Shown: in pieces, positions 1 through 34,349 of the stretch
Numbering within the stretch: the first letter of the stretch is position 1
Layout: each line of letters begins with the position of its first letter
From: a virus
IMG/VR virus record: IMGVR_UViG_3300034160_000202
Coordinates: 1-34,349 of that record
Length of the DNA: 34,349 nt
Direction: 5' to 3' (one strand)
Made by a program: the position numbers and the translations under genes
Notes under the pieces: generated by a model
What the model saw: the letters and a program-made list of their open reading frames with translations, nothing else
Databases searched by the model: none
What the model was told of the DNA's origin: nothing

Positions 1-414
1 ATGTTTTATCCCATTGCAATTGAAGCAGGTGACGATCAGCATGCATACGGCGTGATTGTTCCAGATTTACCCGGTTGTTTTTCAGCAGGTGACACTCTGG
101 ATGAAGCAATCTCAGCCGCCAAAGAGGCGATTACTGGTCATATCGAAGTTATGGTAGAAATGGGTCAGGATATTCCTGCCGTTTCCAGTGTTGGCAAATT
201 GGCAAAGGATCCTGAATTCGCAGGTTATATTTGGGCTGTTGTAGACATTGATGTTTCTCGTCTGCTTGGTGGGTCAGAAAAAATTAACGTCACTCTTCCA
301 AAATCGTTAATTGACCGTATCGACCGCTGTGTCGCCACACATCCAGAATTTAAAAGCCGATCCGCATTTTTAGCTGAAGCTGCGCTGTTGCAAATCAGCG
401 GCATCCACCAGTAG
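1..414 (+). CDS. hicB: HicB-family antitoxin
   Basis: HicB proteins neutralise the HicA mRNA interferase and repress their own operon. The 137-aa product has the N-terminal HicB fold (YGVIVPDLPGCFSAGDTLDEA, residues about 17-36, followed by an alpha-helical stretch) and a C-terminal ribbon-helix-helix DNA-binding region (INVTLPKSLIDRID, about 95-108, then a helix to 131), which is the usual antitoxin layout. The gene starts at the first base of the window, so the expected hicA lies outside it and cannot be checked. It is followed by an intrinsic terminator and then the prophage left end, and is read as chromosomal rather than phage DNA. Confidence 0.9.
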   Translation: MFYPIAIEAGDDQHAYGVIVPDLPGCFSAGDTLDEAISAAKEAITGHIEVMVEMGQDIPAVSSVGKLAKDPEFAGYIWAVVDIDVSRLLGGSEKINVTLPKSLIDRIDRCVATHPEFKSRSAFLAEAALLQISGIHQ

Positions 415-480: not shown

Positions 481-502
481 AAAAAAAGGGAGGCCATCGG
501 CC
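481..502. other. attL core (22-bp direct repeat with 32869-32890)
   Basis: Seven A residues followed by GGGAGGCCATCGGCC, identical to the right-hand copy at 32869-32890. To its left is host sequence (hicB terminator region), to its right phage sequence. In the right copy the bases continue TCCC and complete the ptsG terminator stem; here they continue GCCATT, so this copy forms only an imperfect hairpin. This is what is expected if the site was split between attL and attR. Confidence 0.85.
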
Positions 503-538
503 GCCATTTATAGTGAATTAAAAACAAGCAGTTACAGA

Positions 539-613
539 TTTATCAATGAGTTAGATACCTGTAACTGCGTGCTTAGAATGGGGATAGCGTGGGGATTTTG
601 GTCAATTTGTGGA
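539..613. repeat. att-arm repeat, copy A, with IHF-type site
   Basis: About 42 bp starting at ATCAATGA (542-583) match copy B at 986-1025 with roughly six differences, and both end in CAATTTGTGGA. The segment contains TATCAATGAGTTA (541-553), a perfect match to the IHF consensus WATCAANNNNTTR. A 9-bp inverted repeat, CAGTTACAG (529-537) and CTGTAACTG (559-567), spans it. Position beside the core fits an integrase/IHF arm of attP; function is inferred. Confidence 0.7.
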
Positions 614-672
614 TCTTCAGAAAAGGTACTTAGCCGCAGCAAAGCCGAAACCTAAGGCGGTAAATACAATCC

Positions 673-915: not shown

Positions 916-982
916 CCTGCCTTTATATTCATGAGAGGGCTGCACCGCCATATTGAGAGTAGTATAAACAATCATTCACATA

Positions 983-1039
983 TTAATCAATGATTTAGCA
1001 CCTGTAACTGTATGCTTAAAATGGGGGGCAATTTGTGGA
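983..1039. repeat. att-arm repeat, copy B, with IHF-type site
   Basis: Second copy of the segment at 539-613, lacking about 15 bp between the GGGG run and CAATTTGTGGA. It contains AATCAATGATTTA (985-997), again a perfect WATCAANNNNTTR match. The left arm of the CAGTTACAG inverted repeat is absent here. The two copies bracket the small gene at 673-915. Confidence 0.7.
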
Positions 1040-1101: not shown

Positions 1102-2991
1102 TTATTTAAATTTCATATCATCCAACATATTTGATATTAATCCATCACTTTCCAACTTTTTAAGATACTCATCATCAATCATTTTCTGAAGGGAGGTGGC
1201 TAAATTCAAATAATAAGAATAAGTGGCATCTATAAAACCTTTATCAAAATCAGTTAATACTTCTTTGAGTTCATCTACTATAACCCACTTTACTCCATCC
1301 ATTAAAATTTCATCTGTAGCGTTTTCAGTAAATTTACCCTTACCATTCTTATCTCTTGAAAAAGCCATAATCATCCCTTCATGCTTGATGAAGTATTCAT
1401 AAGCTGGGTCCTCTTCATGCCTTAAACCAGCAATGGCAATAGCATAGTTAATATATTTTAAATTCCTCGAACTATTGTCATCAAAATACTCAAAAGGAGT
1501 TACAGAGACAATTCCAGACTCGTCGATACCTAGCCTCGATTGGCTAATTTCTTTTTCTACATAATCTCTACTTTTTACTATTACTTTATTCTCAGAAAAA
1601 ACATCATTACTTGCAAGTAATGGAATTAAGTAATGCTTATAAAAAGCACTTGTGTCTATGAGTTTAAGCATTGACAAGAGATTATAATTTACTTTCCTTA
1701 GATCAATTTCCGTATATTTACTTAGAAATGAAACTTTTTGCTCAGGGCTAAACATTGCAATGCATTTTGCCGAGAAGTACTCCTGTATTGTCCTATGAAT
1801 ATATACGTAATTATTATATCCATCGCGCGTTATCAGATTTGTGCCATCAACTATGTCTGCACAAACATGTTCTTCGGATAGGCCCAATCTCTTTATTTCG
1901 CAGACTTTCTCAAAAATTTTATGCATAGTCTCCAAAGTGAAATCACTGCGAAATTCCATTAAGCTAAAAAAACTGAACAAGCTAAAACATTCTTCAAGTT
2001 TTTTATTTGTTAGTGTTGTTTTCTTCTCTCTTTTGAAGTTTTTATTCCAATCATGCCTGAAGATAAGGGCAGAAAAAAGTTGGTCGTAGTAATCACCAAT
2101 TGAGTTAGGCTCGTCACTCAATGATGGTGAGGTTACTATCAAAACATCTATTAATATTGGCGTTCGAATTGTTGACCTTAAAAAACTCTTAGTCCTTAAA
2201 GCATTAATTATCAACTCACCAGCATCTCTATTCTTGACCGTTTTTTTTATAATTTCACAAACATCTTTATAAACTAAAAGACTTACTCTGTATAAAAAAA
2301 CCCCCGGATGTCTAGTTATCTCTGTATCTGGTCTAGTAGTAACAAGGGAGGAACAACTATATTTATCATAAATAGACGAGATCATTCTTAATGCATTATT
2401 TCTTTGAGCCTCTACAATCTCATCGAACCCATCCCAGTAAAATACCACTTTCTTTGTTTTTAGAATATTGATTACATCATTGCGATCACATTCAATTCCG
2501 TTAGAGCTTAGATGATCTAATAAGATATCCTCACAACTAATCTTCGATGTATATTCAAATTGTCTAAGGGTGATAAAAAAAGGAAGCCTCTCTCCCCTAA
2601 CTAACTCTTCAAGAAACAACTTCCTCATAATTGTAGTTTTGCCTTGCCCAGCAAGTCCGACAATGGCACTGCAACCTTCATTATCTATAGAAACGCCATC
2701 ATCTATTAGCAATTGCCTGCTCTTAACTACTTTACCAATAATCCTCATTGGATGATATATTTCATCTAGATATACGTCTTCATCTCCAGCAGTCATAGTC
2801 CTAAAGACAAATATTTTATGTATAGCTTTTGAAACATACTCATTTATAATTTTATCGTCATTAAAAGCAATTAGTATTTTATTACTTATAGCTTTAGACT
2901 TACTCATTCCTGTTTCAGCTATTTTACTTCCAATAGCCTTGAAAACCCCTCCAAATAGTGCTTCAGCTATAAATACAGAAAGCGTCCCCAT
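1102..2991 (-). CDS. NACHT-domain NTPase (bacterial NLR-like, candidate anti-phage protein)
   Basis: A 629-aa STAND NTPase. Walker A is GLAGQGKTT (residues 112-120), Walker B is VVFYWDGFDE (182-191) with the NACHT-type DGxDE ending, LVTTRPD (216-222) matches the following TSRP-like motif, and YIHRTIQEYFSA (397-408) matches the winged-helix motif typical of NACHT proteins. The first 100 residues form a short unassigned N-terminal region with a small hydrophobic segment (4-20); about 200 C-terminal residues are an unassigned, possibly sensor, domain. Several bacterial NACHT proteins are experimentally shown anti-phage NLR relatives; a defence role here is inferred. The gene is clearly AT-rich compared with the structural genes, a sign of separate acquisition. 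GTGAGGT overlapping the int stop supports this start. Confidence 0.9.
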   Translation of the reverse strand: MGTLSVFIAEALFGGVFKAIGSKIAETGMSKSKAISNKILIAFNDDKIINEYVSKAIHKIFVFRTMTAGDEDVYLDEIYHPMRIIGKVVKSRQLLIDDGVSIDNEGCSAIVGLAGQGKTTIMRKLFLEELVRGERLPFFITLRQFEYTSKISCEDILLDHLSSNGIECDRNDVINILKTKKVVFYWDGFDEIVEAQRNNALRMISSIYDKYSCSSLVTTRPDTEITRHPGVFLYRVSLLVYKDVCEIIKKTVKNRDAGELIINALRTKSFLRSTIRTPILIDVLIVTSPSLSDEPNSIGDYYDQLFSALIFRHDWNKNFKREKKTTLTNKKLEECFSLFSFFSLMEFRSDFTLETMHKIFEKVCEIKRLGLSEEHVCADIVDGTNLITRDGYNNYVYIHRTIQEYFSAKCIAMFSPEQKVSFLSKYTEIDLRKVNYNLLSMLKLIDTSAFYKHYLIPLLASNDVFSENKVIVKSRDYVEKEISQSRLGIDESGIVSVTPFEYFDDNSSRNLKYINYAIAIAGLRHEEDPAYEYFIKHEGMIMAFSRDKNGKGKFTENATDEILMDGVKWVIVDELKEVLTDFDKGFIDATYSYYLNLATSLQKMIDDEYLKKLESDGLISNMLDDMKFK

Positions 2992-2999
2992 TGATTACC

Positions 3000-3992
3000 T
3001 CACTTATTTACTTCAAATAATACATTCAACGGATTAAACCTCACCGCATCTTCCAAATAACCCGGTGCAAAATGCGCATACACCATCGTTTGTAAAATAT
3101 TCGAATGTCCTAAAATCCGTTGTAGCGCCAGAATGTTGCCACCATTCATTATAAAATGACTAGCGAAGGTATGGCGTAAAACGTGAACGGCTTGCCCTGC
3201 TGGCAGGCCGGGGGCAACTTCTTTAATGCACGTTCTTAAATACGGGTAATTCAGCCCGGCAAACAGCGGTCCGGCCTTGATACCATCAGTAATATGTTGG
3301 CAAAGTTCAGCAGAGATCGGGACGGTTCTATTCTTATTATTTTTCGTATTGAGAAAGGTCACCTTATTACCGATCACTTCTTCCCGTCTAAGTTTGAGCA
3401 CCTCCCCCCAACGCGCACCTGTCGCCAAACAAAGCTTGACCGCTTTCAGGTGGCCGCCTTGTAACCGATCAAGCAGTTGCCAGATTTCGTCATGAGTTAA
3501 AAAACCCATTTCCTGATCCGGCAGCCTAATTTTTTTCATCTCTTTGAGCGGATGTTCACCATAGTAATGTCCCAAATCTATGAGAACGGAGAACACCCCA
3601 CCAAGCATTTCCTGATCAAGATTAATAGTTTTTGCCTTTTTGCCTTCAGCCAATCGTAGTACACGATAGTCTGAAAACGTGGCACGTGAAATCTGGTAGG
3701 CTTTCGGGCTGCCCATCTTTGTATCCATCACACGCAATTTATGCGCCCTCTTAACGCCATCCTTCAGGTTTTGGCCGTGATGCATAGACCAAAGCTCAAT
3801 CAGTTCTCTCAATGGCCGTTGGTCGGAGGGTTTTTCCACCCAGTCTTTACTGTTCTGTGTAGCTATGACCCACCGCTCATACTGTTGCGCTTCAGCTTTT
3901 GTCTTAAACTTTTTACGAACGCGTTTACCTTCACGTCCTTGGGGGCGAACATCCACCATGTAACCTTCCGAACCGAGTGATTTAATGCTCAT
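3000..3992 (-). CDS. int: Tyrosine integrase (HP1/P2 family)
   Basis: A 330-aa site-specific recombinase that would integrate and, with Cox, excise the prophage. The catalytic set is visible: R194 (ATGARWGE), lysine in TKNNKNRT (217 or 220), H270 and R273 (HVLRHTFASH), H296 (LGHSN) and nucleophile Y305. An N-terminal arm-binding region (about 1-50) and a core-binding SAM-like region (about 58-155) precede it. Length matches HP1 integrase (about 337 aa). The gene reads towards attL as in P2, but about 2.5 kb of cargo separates it from the attachment site instead of it abutting attP. Confidence 0.97.
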   Translation of the reverse strand: MSIKSLGSEGYMVDVRPQGREGKRVRKKFKTKAEAQQYERWVIATQNSKDWVEKPSDQRPLRELIELWSMHHGQNLKDGVKRAHKLRVMDTKMGSPKAYQISRATFSDYRVLRLAEGKKAKTINLDQEMLGGVFSVLIDLGHYYGEHPLKEMKKIRLPDQEMGFLTHDEIWQLLDRLQGGHLKAVKLCLATGARWGEVLKLRREEVIGNKVTFLNTKNNKNRTVPISAELCQHITDGIKAGPLFAGLNYPYLRTCIKEVAPGLPAGQAVHVLRHTFASHFIMNGGNILALQRILGHSNILQTMVYAHFAPGYLEDAVRFNPLNVLFEVNK

Positions 3993-4055: not shown

Positions 4056-4358
4056 TTAGCCAACCTTCTGGTCGCCTTGGTGGTCGGATGTGTTGTTTTG
4101 CCCATTAGGGGAGAGAACCGGCGATATCTGGCCAATCTCAGGAGCAATATCACCGGTCATTAACCACATCGTGTATTTCTTGAATTTCTCATGCTGGGTA
4201 ATCTTCAAAAGAAAATCACTACCAATGCTTTTGATTCGGTCGGTCTCATACCTCTTTAAATTTCCTGCGGGAACACCGGTTAAAGCGGAGAAATCTTCTC
4301 GACTTAACCCCTCAGCCTCACGGATCTCACGAATCTTTGAACCTATGTTGGTTGACAT
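4056..4358 (-). CDS. C-type phage repressor (HTH)
   Basis: A 100-aa helix-turn-helix protein, the same size as P2 C repressor (99 aa). The HTH region is about residues 8-37 (REIREAEGLSREDFSALTG, then VPAGNLKRYE), and the gene sits divergent from cox with operator-like repeats between, the standard P2 immunity switch. It has no peptidase domain, so like P2 C it would not be expected to self-cleave in the SOS response; that is inference. Its start codon abuts one of the operator repeats, consistent with autoregulation. Confidence 0.88.
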   Translation of the reverse strand: MSTNIGSKIREIREAEGLSREDFSALTGVPAGNLKRYETDRIKSIGSDFLLKITQHEKFKKYTMWLMTGDIAPEIGQISPVLSPNGQNNTSDHQGDQKVG

Positions 4359-8303: not shown

Positions 8304-9131
8304 ATGGATGCAGAATCGGTCAAAACAGGAATTGATTGGATGCCAATAGCATTGGCGTTATTCAGCGGCTTCATTGGCACGTTTTTTGGAGCTTATTTTT
8401 TAAACTGGAGGTCGGAAAGAAAAATATCTGGCGTTAGAAAAATAGCTATAAAGTGTTTGAATAAAATTAAAGACTATGATAAATCAGGGAAAACTTATAA
8501 AAATGTAGAAGATGAGTTCAATAATGATATAACTACAGCAGAAAAGAGAGCAGTTTTGGTTGCGTTGCAAAAAATAGGAGTGCCTGTTAAATTTCCTTTT
8601 CAGCAACCATTTAATATTAGAGTTATTACTTTCTACCCTGAATTGATAAATTCAAAAGAAGTTGAAGAAATGATTGCGCAAATAAAAACTGGTAATTGTG
8701 ATCATTTATTTTTCTCAGACCCAGATATTTATTTTACTGAGAACAATAGAATAAAGGCAATGCGAACCGTAGCAAAAAACTGTGTTAATAATGCGCTTAG
8801 ACAGTCTTATGTAGGGGAAAATGAAAGTGGGAACTTAGAACGAGTACTTCCCAAAGTCTGGAGTGATAGCATTAGCGGTGGGGAAATGAACGTCCTTCTT
8901 GTTTTTTTATCAAAAACAAACAATGATTCATACTATAATGCTGATAATAAAGCGGATCAAAAAAAGATGGACTCTTTAGTTAAAGAGATTGAGTTAGGCT
9001 TATGGGATACTTATTTACAATGGGATCATGATTCATTCAGAAGTATGAATCAACAGCTAAGTGTAAATAATGTGATAATAGGCCTTGCGGAATCTCAGCA
9101 ATTACAAAACTTAATACCACCCTTTAAATAG
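8304..9131 (+). CDS. Unknown protein with N-terminal membrane anchor (hotspot cargo)
   Basis: A 275-aa product of an AT-rich gene. One transmembrane helix is visible at about residues 12-34 (WMPIALALFSGFIGTFFGAY), with a basic region just after it (NWRSERKISGVRK), so the roughly 240-residue remainder is probably cytoplasmic. The soluble part has alternating charged helices and no motif I recognise. It lies between the replication gene and the cos region, the place occupied by tin and old in P2, and is followed 79 bp later by a second AT-rich gene on the same strand. A defence role is inferred from position, composition and pairing only. Confidence 0.75.
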   Translation: MDAESVKTGIDWMPIALALFSGFIGTFFGAYFLNWRSERKISGVRKIAIKCLNKIKDYDKSGKTYKNVEDEFNNDITTAEKRAVLVALQKIGVPVKFPFQQPFNIRVITFYPELINSKEVEEMIAQIKTGNCDHLFFSDPDIYFTENNRIKAMRTVAKNCVNNALRQSYVGENESGNLERVLPKVWSDSISGGEMNVLLVFLSKTNNDSYYNADNKADQKKMDSLVKEIELGLWDTYLQWDHDSFRSMNQQLSVNNVIIGLAESQQLQNLIPPFK

Positions 9132-9210
9132 AAGTATAATCAGCCATAGTTTGTTAACTCGAGTAACTATGGTTGCTTATAGATTAAGTGAACTCCAAGG
9201 AAGAGACACA

Positions 9211-9912
9211 ATGCCGATTTCAAGAGCAATGTCAGAATTATTAGGAAAACCTCTGCCGAAAGATAATTTTTTATTTAAGAACGATTCAAAAATATCTAAA
9301 ATGATTACAAGATGCGAAAATTATGTTGAGATATCATTGGATCTAAAAAGCTGTATGTATTCTATCAAGGCTTTGGAAAAGTTGGTTGAAATAAGAGATG
9401 TAAACACAATTAGCACTAATGGCATTTACTTATCTCTGGCCATCACAATAGAGTCATACTCTTGTTATATTATCATGCTTTATTCTAAAGCGTTTGGTAC
9501 ATCAAAAGGCAGAACTAGCTTAGATAATAAATTGAAAGAGGTTTTTAATGAGTGTGAATATTTGCTTGATACTCATGGCTATATCATGGAGTTAAGGCAT
9601 AAATATTTCGCTCATCACCAATTAAAAGCTAATACTCATAGCATATTTTATAAGGTAATAGACGGTGAGGTATTATTAGATCCTTTCTGTTTTTCTTCAA
9701 AAGTGGAAATTTATAGTGTGGTTCCTTGGCTGGATTTTTATAAGTGCATTAAGCAAGTGAAAGTATTTGCAGAGACTGAAGCTGAGAAGATTTGTAAAAA
9801 AATACAAGATTCACTTACAGAGTCGCAACGTGACTATTTACGTTCTGTTGATTATGACGAAGTGATTTCCATTTATGAAAATTCTCAGAAAGACCTTCTC
9901 AGCGATAGGTAA
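9211..9912 (+). CDS. HEPN-like protein (candidate abortive-infection RNase)
   Basis: A 233-aa, helix-rich protein of an AT-rich gene. ELRHKYFAHHQ places R129 and H135 in an Rx5H arrangement, the signature of HEPN ribonucleases, preceded by the long helices such proteins have (47-62 and 70-93); AbiU2-type proteins carry a similar R-x-K-x-x-AH sequence. AAGGAAGAG nine bases before the ATG at 9211 decides this start; an upstream in-frame ATG (9169) and TTG (9151) lack a ribosome site. It would form an operon with the membrane-anchored gene before it. HEPN assignment is motif-based and moderate; many HEPN proteins are toxins or defence effectors. Confidence 0.75.
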   Translation: MPISRAMSELLGKPLPKDNFLFKNDSKISKMITRCENYVEISLDLKSCMYSIKALEKLVEIRDVNTISTNGIYLSLAITIESYSCYIIMLYSKAFGTSKGRTSLDNKLKEVFNECEYLLDTHGYIMELRHKYFAHHQLKANTHSIFYKVIDGEVLLDPFCFSSKVEIYSVVPWLDFYKCIKQVKVFAETEAEKICKKIQDSLTESQRDYLRSVDYDEVISIYENSQKDLLSDR

Positions 9913-9940
9913 CAGCTTCCCCGCTTTCGCAGGGGTTCTG
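9913..9940. other. Candidate cos site / hairpin between convergent genes
   Basis: Between two convergent genes. On the minus strand it reads GCGAAAGCGGGGAAGC, resembling the P2 cohesive end core GAGGCGGGGAAAGC. The location, past the end of the leftward portal operon, is where P2 has cos. The same bases form a CCCC/GGGG hairpin (9919-9922 with 9932-9935) that could instead be a weak bidirectional terminator, though no T tract follows. Confidence 0.4.
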
Positions 9941-10267
9941 CTATCTAGCCTGGTTTTGTAGTAGGTCTAACGCATATTGCCGTTCATCAGGCTTTAACCT
10001 ATCCAGCAAAAGCTTGACCAACTTATTGCCAGTCAGCCCGCTGGGGCTGAGTGAGTGGGAGAACGTCGCATTAAAAACAAAAGTATGGCCGCACTCCACT
10101 TCTGAGCAGGCGCAATACACATCGGCCAGTTGCTTATTCTTCCACTCGGTCTTACGGATGATTGCCGGAGCACTACACTCCGGGCAACTAATTTTGAATA
10201 TGCGCACGTTGATTACCCCGCATGCCAGTGCTAACAATGGGGACGATCTTAGCTTATTTCCGGTCAT
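9941..10267 (-). CDS. ogr: Ogr/Delta-like zinc-finger late activator
   Basis: Ogr/Delta proteins activate P2-type late promoters through RNA polymerase alpha. The 108-aa product shows CPEC followed after about 22 residues by CSEVEC (C-x2-C and C-x4-C), the Ogr zinc pattern, then HTFVF, matching the family's C-x4-C-x-ATF end. The ATG overlaps the portal stop as ATGA, giving a 22-residue N-terminal extension; a GTG at codon 21 (just before RIFKISCP) would give the size usual for the family. In P2, ogr is next to D near attP; here it ends the portal operon, an unusual place. Confidence 0.82.
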   Translation of the reverse strand: MTGNKLRSSPLLALACGVINVRIFKISCPECSAPAIIRKTEWKNKQLADVYCACSEVECGHTFVFNATFSHSLSPSGLTGNKLVKLLLDRLKPDERQYALDLLQNQAR

Positions 10268-11328
10268 TTTTCGCCCTTATCCTCGCTAACTGCGGCAATA
10301 TCAATATCAAATCGCAGATGTAAGTGCGCGGGGATCTCCGGGTCACTGTTGATACCAGTCATAAATTTGCGTTGCAGCGGGATCACCTCATCCTTGCGGT
10401 AGGTATCTCGGGCAGTTTCGGGGCTCCCCATCACCGCGCCATTGGTCGGGATGATACCCGCCAGGCCAGCCGGGAACCGGTGCGCGGTAAAAATATCTTG
10501 AGCGGTGATCCCCTTCACGTTAGCAAACTCATCCTTGGCGGTGACTTCTCCCACCGGTAACAGCTTGATCCCCTCAGGGTCACCTTTCGGGATATTAATA
10601 AACATGTTGCGAAAATTACCCAACCCTTTGGATTGTTCAATCTTGCTTTTGATCTCCGCTTCCACTTCCCCGGTAATGTTGGGGTCATTCGCATAGAGAA
10701 TAAACCCCATGTGCGCACCGTTATGGTAGTAACGGCGTCTAAAAATCGTGGCCTCACTGTTGAGCAATGCGGAGTGAATACCGCCAATATAATCCGGCAG
10801 GCCGTAAACCTGTTGGCGCGGGTCATACATCTTGTAAAAGGCAATATCTCGCGGGCTATAGGACAACGCGGGCCCCTCTTGCAGCACCACAAAATCGCCG
10901 TTCTTACGGCAGCGCAGGTAAAGCGAGGGCAGCGGCAACAAATCAATCACCTCATTAAAGACATTACGGATTTTCAACACCGCCACATCACCGAACAGCA
11001 GGTAATCAAACACCATTTGCTCTATCTGGTCAGTGGTTAACCCGCCGCCCAGGAAGCCACCGGCCACCATGTTGCGCCGGGCATACAGTACGCCGCCATG
11101 CTGCGCGCTAAGGTTGGGCAATTGGGCCAAGGCGAGCCTATCAATAGGTAATCGCCAGTGGTCAAACTCATTGTCATACCAGATATTGTGATAATCGGTC
11201 CCCGTGGTAAGAATGGGTTCGGGTTCGCCAAAGGTGATCACACTGCCACGCCCCGGTGTAAACGTTTCAGGCTTGACGGTGGGAACCCCTTTCTGGGGGT
11301 TGCGCGGCTTACGTTTCTTCGTTGTCAT
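10264..11328 (-). CDS. Q: Portal protein (P2 GpQ family)
   Basis: A 354-aa portal of the PBSX/P2 family, forming the dodecameric DNA channel at one capsid vertex. Family features include GGGLTTDQIEQMVFDYLLFGDVAVL, split here as GGLTTDQIEQ (about 96-105) and DYLLFGDVAVL, the central LPLPSLYLR segment, GLPDYIGGIHSALLNSEA and the C-terminal ETARDTYRKDEVIPLQ. P2 Q is 344 aa. It is cotranscribed leftwards with the large terminase, with a 4-bp ATGA overlap to the terminase stop, the P2 PQ arrangement. Confidence 0.96.
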   Translation of the reverse strand: MTTKKRKPRNPQKGVPTVKPETFTPGRGSVITFGEPEPILTTGTDYHNIWYDNEFDHWRLPIDRLALAQLPNLSAQHGGVLYARRNMVAGGFLGGGLTTDQIEQMVFDYLLFGDVAVLKIRNVFNEVIDLLPLPSLYLRCRKNGDFVVLQEGPALSYSPRDIAFYKMYDPRQQVYGLPDYIGGIHSALLNSEATIFRRRYYHNGAHMGFILYANDPNITGEVEAEIKSKIEQSKGLGNFRNMFINIPKGDPEGIKLLPVGEVTAKDEFANVKGITAQDIFTAHRFPAGLAGIIPTNGAVMGSPETARDTYRKDEVIPLQRKFMTGINSDPEIPAHLHLRFDIDIAAVSEDKGEK

Positions 11329-32781: not shown

Positions 32782-32868
32782 ATGTCTAAAGGCCACCCGA
32801 GGCACTACCGGTGGTCACTTTGTGGGCATGGAGAATAAATAACCCTTATAAATCAATGAAAAAACCAT

Positions 32869-32890
32869 AAAAAAAGGGAGGCCATCGGCC
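32869..32890. other. attR core (22-bp direct repeat with 481-502)
   Basis: Seven A residues then GGGAGGCCATCGGCC, identical to the left copy. The host continues directly with TCCC, completing the ptsG terminator stem. Sequence to the left is phage-derived. Confidence 0.85.
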
Positions 32891-32915: not shown

Positions 32916-34349
32916 TCAGTGATTACGGATGTACTCATCCATATCTGTTTTCAGGTTATCAGACTTGGTACCAAAGATGGCCTGAACGCCAGAACCTGCG
33001 ACCACAACGCCCGCAGCACCCAGTTTCTTCAGCCCAGCCTGGTCAACCTTGGATATGTCGGCCACGCTAACGCGCAGACGAGTGATACAAGCATCCAGGT
33101 TAGTGATGTTTTCTTTACCGCCAAATGCCTGAACCAAAGCTGCAGACATTTCAGAACCGCCCTGAGTAACCTGATCAGCCGTCGTATCTTCACGACCAGG
33201 AGTTTTCAGATCCAATTTTGCAATCAGCACGCGGAAGATGGTGTAGTACACCAGACCGTAGATAACACCGACGATTGGGAACAGCCAGATTTTGCTGCTG
33301 TTACCGCTCAGTACGATGAAGTCGATCAGACCGTGCGAGAAGCTGGTACCGTCACGCATACCCAACAGAATACAGATTGGGAATGCCAAGCCTGCCAGAA
33401 GTGCGTGGATCACGTACAGGATCGGTGCAACGAACATGAACGAGAATTCGATGGGTTCGGTAATACCGGTCAGGAACGAGGTCAACGCAGCGGAGATCAT
33501 GATACCGCCGACTTTGGCACGGTTTTCCGGCTTAGCTGAATGCCAGATGGCAATCGCAGCAGCTGGCAGACCGTACATCTTGAACAGGAAGCCACCGGAC
33601 AACATACCTGCAGTTGGGTCACCCGCCATGTAACGCGGAATGTCACCGTGGAACACTTGACCCGCTGCATTGGTGAATTCACCAATTTGCATCTGGAATG
33701 GTACGTTCCAGATGTGGTGCAGGCCAAACGGCACCAGAGCACGCTCAACGACACCGTAAATACCAAACGCAACCACTGGGTTCTGATAAGCCGCCCATTG
33801 TGAGAAGGTCTGGATAGCCGTACCGATTGGAGGCCAGATAAAGGACAGAATCACGCCCAGAATGATGGCCGCCAGACCAGAGATGATCGGAACAAAACGC
33901 TTACCGGCAAAGAAGCCCAGGTATTCCGGCAATTGGATGCGGAAGAAGCGGTTGAACATGTAGGCAGCGATGGAGCCGGAGATAATCCCCCCGAGCACAC
34001 CGGTATCGGCCAGGTGTTTGGCTGCGATCTCTTCGGCTGGCAGATGCAGAACCAGCGGAGCAACCACGGCCATGGTTTTCACCATGATACCGTAAGCCAC
34101 CACAGCGGCCAGTGCGGAAACACCGTCGTTGTTAGTGAAGCCCAAAGCCACACCGATGGCGAAAATTAACGGCATATTGGCGAATACAGACCCGCCAGCT
34201 TCTGCCATCACGTGGGAGACTACCATAGGCAGCCAGCTAAAGTTGGCGGAACCGACGCCCAGCAGAATACCTGCAATAGGCAATACGGATACCGGCAGCA
34301 TCAGCGATTTACCTACTTTCTGCAGGTTTGCAAATGCGTTCTTGAACAT
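32916..34349 (-). CDS. ptsG: Glucose-specific PTS permease EIICB (PtsG)
   Basis: A 477-aa inner-membrane glucose transporter/phosphotransferase, the same length as E. coli PtsG. The IIC part (about 1-390) has the expected membrane helices and the substrate region [17 protein letters not shown] and [15 protein letters not shown]; the C-terminal IIB domain contains the phosphorylated cysteine in [13 protein letters not shown]. It takes up glucose while phosphorylating it with phosphate from PEP via EIIA(Glc). The start codon is the last base triplet of the window; its promoter is outside. It is chromosomal and convergent with hicB across the prophage. Confidence 0.98.

Follow-up and report, generated by a model that had tools for sequence, protein, structure and literature searches.

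What does a gene for a NACHT-type NTPase do in a temperate phage, lodged between the integrase and the attachment site? The question arises from IMG/VR record IMGVR_UViG_3300034160_000202, whose positions 1 to 34,349 make up the stretch of viral DNA analysed here (the window, 34,349 nucleotides). The features that bear on the answer are collected in Table 1.

Table 1. Features of the window; dots separate first and last position, and residue numbers are those of the NACHT protein.
Feature	Position	Strand	Basis and remarks
HicB-like antitoxin gene, left flank, outside attL	1..414	+	HicB_lk_antitox, E 1e-50
attL core, 22 bp	481..502		exact repeat of 32869-32890; empty site in L196
att core and conserved phage att arm	482..617		contains GTTACA...TGTAAC; in relatives, bounds the cargo slot on its far side
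Small zinc-ribbon-like cargo ORF, 100 aa	673..975	-	phrog_4293, E 1.2e-10
Second, degenerate att-arm copy	945..1026		79% to 501-583; separates most of the small ORF from the NACHT gene
NACHT STAND ATPase gene, 629 aa, predicted single-gene bNACHT (clade-14-like)	1102..2991	-	Pfam, motifs, bNACHT12 homology
C-terminal region, residues 415-629: SNaCT-like start and fast-diverging alpha/beta part, putative sensor	1105..1749	-	models and alignments
NACHT domain core, residues 109-224	2320..2667	-	Pfam match
Walker B, residues 186-191 (WDGFDE)	2419..2436	-	translation and homologue alignment
Walker A, residues 112-119 (GLAGQGKT), K118	2635..2658	-	translation and homologue alignment
N-terminal helix, residues 2-26	2914..2988	-	block pLDDT 55-85; hydrophobic, A/G/S/T-rich, no known domain
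Tyrosine integrase (int)	3000..3992	-	Phage_integrase, E 1.8e-19; ends 8 bp before the NACHT start codon
C-type repressor	4056..4358	-	phrog_147, E 3.6e-32; heads the C-int-NACHT run
attR core	32869..32890		within the terminator of host ptsG
Host ptsG-like gene (PTS EIICB), right flank	32916..34349	-	PTS_EIIC, E 7e-82

The gene has an ATG start, an intact reading frame and an SD-like GAGG upstream. Its 629-aa product matched the Pfam NACHT domain at E 3.1e-11 (43.8 bits against a cut-off of 26.7), and a second, independent search returned NACHT at E 9e-14; NB-ARC was barely above its Pfam cut-off. The motifs from which the first-pass annotation had named a NACHT ATPase are all in place: Walker A spans G112-L-A-G-Q-G-K118-T-T and Walker B W186-DGFDE191, TTRPD lies at 218-222, and the winged-helix motif IHRTIQEYFSA at 398-408. 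Across 43 homologues, G115, G117, K118, D187, D190, E191, R220, P278, H313, H399 and E404 are invariant, H399 and E404 being part of the winged-helix motif. With its domain above the curated cut-off and Walker A and B intact, the protein can, as far as sequence goes, be counted among the bacterial NACHT (bNACHT) proteins. Leucine-rich repeats C-terminal to the NACHT domain, which mark a true NLR, gave no Pfam match. PADLOC (2023), which is without a bNACHT model, returned only weak mads matches, and a sequence search against solved structures found no match. The NCBIfam family EruA was rejected as an assignment, with an E of only 0.08.

Kinship to bacterial proteins of demonstrated anti-phage activity had also been proposed, and one such protein could be named. 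Plasmid pEC012-4 encodes WP_021519735.1, which is bNACHT12, a member of clade 14 (PMC12169576). bNACHT12 and its clade 14 relatives protect E. coli from DNA and RNA phages, bNACHT12 doing so independently of DnaJ (PMC12169576). The window protein is 32% identical to bNACHT12 over residues 52-464 (423 columns, E 2e-68). In a tree of the NACHT region, drawn against a background of other NACHT proteins of the order, it falls in a 20-row group with bNACHT12 (support 81/96), apart from the long multi-domain NACHT proteins. Within this group it belongs to a seven-row subgroup of its own (100/99) that is sister to the bNACHT12 branch rather than inside it, and the full-length tree agrees. Because of the identity to bNACHT12 and the agreement of both trees, the protein is most likely a short-type bNACHT, from clade 14 or its sister as placed by proxy; the phylogenetic check thus did not put it outside the defence-associated NACHT proteins.

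The provirus in the record is P2/HP1-like in gene content, with a C repressor, gpA replication protein, ogr, terminase, a P2 I-type tail protein and an HP1-type baseplate protein. On the right flank, homology with other Enterobacterales chromosomes (up to 90%, over ptsG) sets in at 32865, that is, at the core; in L196 the terminator adjoining ptsG contains an empty site whose core is closely similar. The att repeat, the right-flank homology and this empty site thus place the NACHT gene within the prophage, with int on one side and attL on the other, just as had been read from the sequence. A tRNA scan of the window was empty; the att site used here is therefore not a tRNA gene. The GC content of the gene is 32.9%, against 51.0% for the provirus, and it is therefore regarded as foreign cargo. 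It begins 8 bp past the stop codon of int, is oriented like it and comes after both C and int, and the natural reading of this gene order is that the lysogen would co-transcribe all three genes. A promoter and terminator scan of the slot did no better than shuffled sequences.

Together these data favour, at a probability of roughly 0.78, the reading that a P2/HP1-like prophage carries the gene as lysogenic-conversion cargo and that the gene product is a single-protein, NLR-type anti-phage sensor. Because its close cousins are proven anti-phage proteins, the prophage most likely uses it to protect the host cell from rival viruses. In such a mechanism the gene would be transcribed with C and int at a steady level, so that the resident prophage keeps it on, and the protein would rest closed and autoinhibited with nucleotide bound. 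The trigger would come from a second infecting phage, as one of its products or effects, and be sensed by the fast-evolving C-terminal region. The protein would then be released, exchange its nucleotide and oligomerise by way of its NACHT module, and the oligomer would stop the infection, probably by halting or killing the cell. Its output might pass through the NACHT body or a partner, or else through the N-terminal 25-residue helix acting on a membrane. The trigger, oligomer and output steps are modelled on other STAND proteins and on clade 14.

How the output is achieved depends on what precedes the NACHT domain. An AlphaFold2 model built from 43 sequences (pLDDT 84.6, pTM 0.76) has a confident NLR core, whose best solved match is autoinhibited NLRC4 (VIA Z 21.7, 393 residues, rmsd 5.8, model residues 37-606; Foldseek E 5e-13), followed by NLRP3 (VIA Z 21.0, 361 residues, rmsd 5.6). 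In most structural alignments the NLR-like core starts at about residues 31-49, so only the helix of residues 2-26 remains N-terminal to it. The first-pass annotation had described the short N-terminal region as matching no recognisable domain and had suggested structure prediction; there is indeed no match N-terminal to NACHT in Pfam, NCBIfam or PADLOC, as in clade 14 bNACHT proteins, and prediction reduced the region to this one helix.

Two refinements of the main reading differ on the effector. The better placed, with a little less than an even chance, is that the protein has no effector of its own: its NACHT body would act on a target in the host or the phage, or a partner would be recruited, and the helix would be structural. 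Clade 14 bNACHT proteins defend despite having no readily discernible effector domains (PMC12169576). The N-terminal helices are also predicted with fair confidence, although the argument as a whole is built on the absence of a recognised domain. The other refinement, ranked below it and judged unlikely, takes the N-terminal helix for an amphipathic effector that, once oligomerised with its fellows, damages the inner membrane. In plant CC-NLR resistosomes the first helix damages a membrane on oligomerisation, which offers a model for such an effector, and the helix is here the sole N-terminal addition to the NLR-like core. Despite low identity, the N-terminal segments of the family are hydrophobic and G/A/S/T-rich, and in 43 non-redundant members their median hydrophobicity rank among segments of the same protein is 0.91, a statistic that overstates independence because the members are related. 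However, only 4 of the 43 proteins (2.2 expected) have their hydrophobicity maximum in the N-terminal segment, this segment seldom reaches the hydrophobicity of a classic membrane helix, and a buried structural helix would look alike. A membrane role is thus suggested by these sequences, short of proof.

At the other end of the protein, the whole C-terminal region had been reported to match nothing. This has to be withdrawn for residues 417-464, roughly the first 50 of the region, which hhalign matches to the bNACHT12 group (probability 66%, E 6e-5) and which may form a SNaCT-like start shared with that group. It stands for residues from about 465 to 629, since beyond residue 464 no homology to the C-terminal part of bNACHT12 could be demonstrated. 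Modelled alone, the C-terminal 215 residues fold into a mixed helix and strand domain with one long helix at the end (pLDDT 82.9, the five models ranging from 51 to 83), and this model found no relative in the PDB (best Foldseek E 2.8, best VIA Z 3.2). The closest relative of the protein, the NACHT protein of IMGVR_UViG_2847745031_000004 (L002), is 51% identical over its full length, with 68% identity in the NACHT part and 25% in residues 461-629. The corresponding dN values are 0.24 for residues 101-420 and 0.76 for residues 421-629, with dS saturated in the N-terminal and core parts. As the fastest-diverging part, and one with no match among solved structures, the C-terminal region is likely the sensor; the protein would then combine a conserved ATPase engine with a fast-changing C-terminal reader.

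The position of the gene was compared with that in 80 phage contigs carrying related integrases. At least 240 nt lie beyond int in 33 of the 80, and in 21 of these 33 an ORF on the int strand starts no more than 40 nt from the int stop codon, in some cases overlapping the end of int. The arm of about 135 bp that adjoins the att core is kept at 80-86% identity in L088 (the same as L002), L096, L093, L101, L087, L153 and L095, so that seven loci besides the window are bounded by int and arm. They hold six other contents, plus NACHT once more (L088): an HNH endonuclease (L096), an FRG-domain protein of PADLOC type PDC-S15 on the opposite strand (L101), a pair of ORFs with a weak HEPN match at E 0.002 (L095), a 476-aa protein with no Pfam or PADLOC match that is a candidate new defence gene (L087, 8988-10418, +), and a pair of small proteins in each of L093 and L153. 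In L157, Septu PtuA (PADLOC E 9e-171) adjoins int, and the far border lies beyond the contig end. Because the cargo differs nearly every time, the interval between int and the att arm is a high-turnover cargo slot with defence genes. On comparative sequence grounds it would qualify as a defence hotspot, with variable cargo between two conserved phage features in seven relatives and with other recognised or candidate defence genes (L096, L101 and L095, and PtuA beside int in L157). The view of the first-pass annotation that the gene sits in an unusual place therefore fails; the interval is a recurrent variable slot in this group of phages.

Two further loci in these contigs deserve mention. L132 encodes an AbiC/AbiP-like protein (9332-10495, -; PADLOC E 7e-11). 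Its gene follows a 56% identical integrase and precedes a racemase-like host gene that also occurs in L129, L137, L143 and L147, which have other cargo there. L078 and L153 are parts of one phage (IMGVR_UViG_2806310673_000001), with an integrase 86% identical to that of the window; it has other cargo in the slot between int and att, and its NACHT relative, a distant one, lies instead between gpA and portal.

The L002 gene has the same surroundings as the one in the window, directly after an int that is 87% identical and followed by the same att arm, but L002 is without the extra small ORF and second arm. The small ORF resembles, by eye, the first cargo ORFs after int in L092, L093 and L129, and its listed start codon lies inside the degenerate arm copy. 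The NACHT gene with its arm looks like the L002 arrangement, and the small ORF with its arm like a second unit added at att. The degenerate arm duplication around the small ORF suggests that cargo is exchanged as a unit together with an arm, the double arm being a likely trace of such an exchange.

For P2-like phages, three moron regions have been reviewed, gpA-Q, S-V and fun(Z) (PMC6823313), and a Vibrio hotspot has been located between cI and int (PMC9122126). These regions do not include the int-attL slot, though it may be described elsewhere in the literature; as a cargo region it seems modestly new. A more ambitious proposal, which we consider a long shot, is that it constitutes a fourth, undescribed P2/HP1-like defence slot, expressed in the lysogen and refilled at att by cargo-plus-arm units, with the NACHT protein as a minimal NLR whose only effector is the helix. 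As the slot would end the C-int run, any gene landing there would be expressed in the lysogen.

Relatives of the NACHT protein were also sought beyond the slot. A scan of genome contigs with the single protein found no matches, while an alignment query did find relatives. The next closest, about 40% identical, are those of L008, L052, L053 and L054, which adjoin portal genes of P2-related phages. Relatives lie between gpA and portal in the P2-related contigs L053, L054, L059-L062 and L078, an interval that is a published defence hotspot of P2-related phages (PMC9122126). An E. coli lambdoid prophage region contains one, and others are carried on plasmids, in 157 records that come mostly from Klebsiella and E. 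coli. Relatives at E 1e-20 or better occur in 11 of 395 genomes sampled from the order of an Enterobacter genome. A near-identity search of E. coli genomes for the gene itself found none. A related NACHT protein is also encoded near the genome end of a 14.8-kb tailless Vibrio phage (L006, 12520-14310, +). The window has its own gpA-portal (TO) hotspot, in which two ORFs (8304-9131 and 9151-9912, both +) have a GC content of 32.9%. They had no Pfam or PADLOC match apart from a weak HEPN_AbiU2 match of 9151-9912 (E 0.019), and are candidates for an undescribed defence or toxin-antitoxin pair.

This distribution bears on whether the NACHT protein serves the prophage itself, as a regulator of lysogeny or by excluding only its own kind, rather than in broad defence. 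Its place beside int in the C-int run would suit such a role. Against it, relatives are carried on plasmids and in a lambdoid prophage as well, and elsewhere in the group the slot is filled with unrelated cargo, so the phage does not need the NACHT gene; we consider this quite improbable. The very low GC of the gene and the partial att-arm duplication, a sign of past rearrangement of the region, might suggest a decaying passenger with no present function. This is scarcely credible given an intact 629-aa frame and a full set of catalytic residues. In addition, the window and L002 proteins share 68% identity in the core against 25% in the C-terminus, a contrast that indicates purifying selection on the ATPase.

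In summary, the reading as anti-phage cargo ties a proven family of bacterial kin of animal NLRs to one kind of carrier, the P2-related phages, which have taken up the bNACHT family in at least two cargo slots. The pair formed by the window and L002, with the same slot and integrase type, a conserved ATPase and a divergent C-terminus, amounts to a natural sensor-swap experiment. Since the int-attL slot is bounded by int and a recognisable arm, it is an easy place to seek defence genes. The window protein itself adds a member, of predicted function, to the known family of short bNACHT proteins.

Among known systems, mammalian NLRC4 and NLRP3 resemble the window protein in the predicted fold of the NACHT module, but identity is 14-17% and the window protein is without LRR, CARD and PYD. 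A gene of Vibrio phage 10N.286.49.B11_PE003 (XLL20330.1, annotated NLR_like_bNACHT01; we take bNACHT01 to be WP_015632533.1) is likewise a phage-carried NACHT gene of short architecture, although at 28% identity it belongs to another sub-branch and to a tailless-phage genome. The old/tin hotspot of P2, between gpA and Q, is like the slot described here a high-turnover cargo slot of P2-like phages with defence genes (PMC9122126); it holds the nearest relatives of the window NACHT, whereas the window gene lies between int and attL. The clade 14 proteins differ in that the C-terminal part of the window protein past residue 464 cannot be aligned with theirs, and in its carriage by a P2-like prophage in the int-attL slot. 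In other respects the likeness is close: bNACHT12, bNACHT02 and bNACHT11 (clade 14, with SNaCT) are also single genes of about 610-640 aa on mobile elements, and the window protein shares with their clade the combination of NACHT, winged helix and a short C-terminal region, with no classical effector domain.
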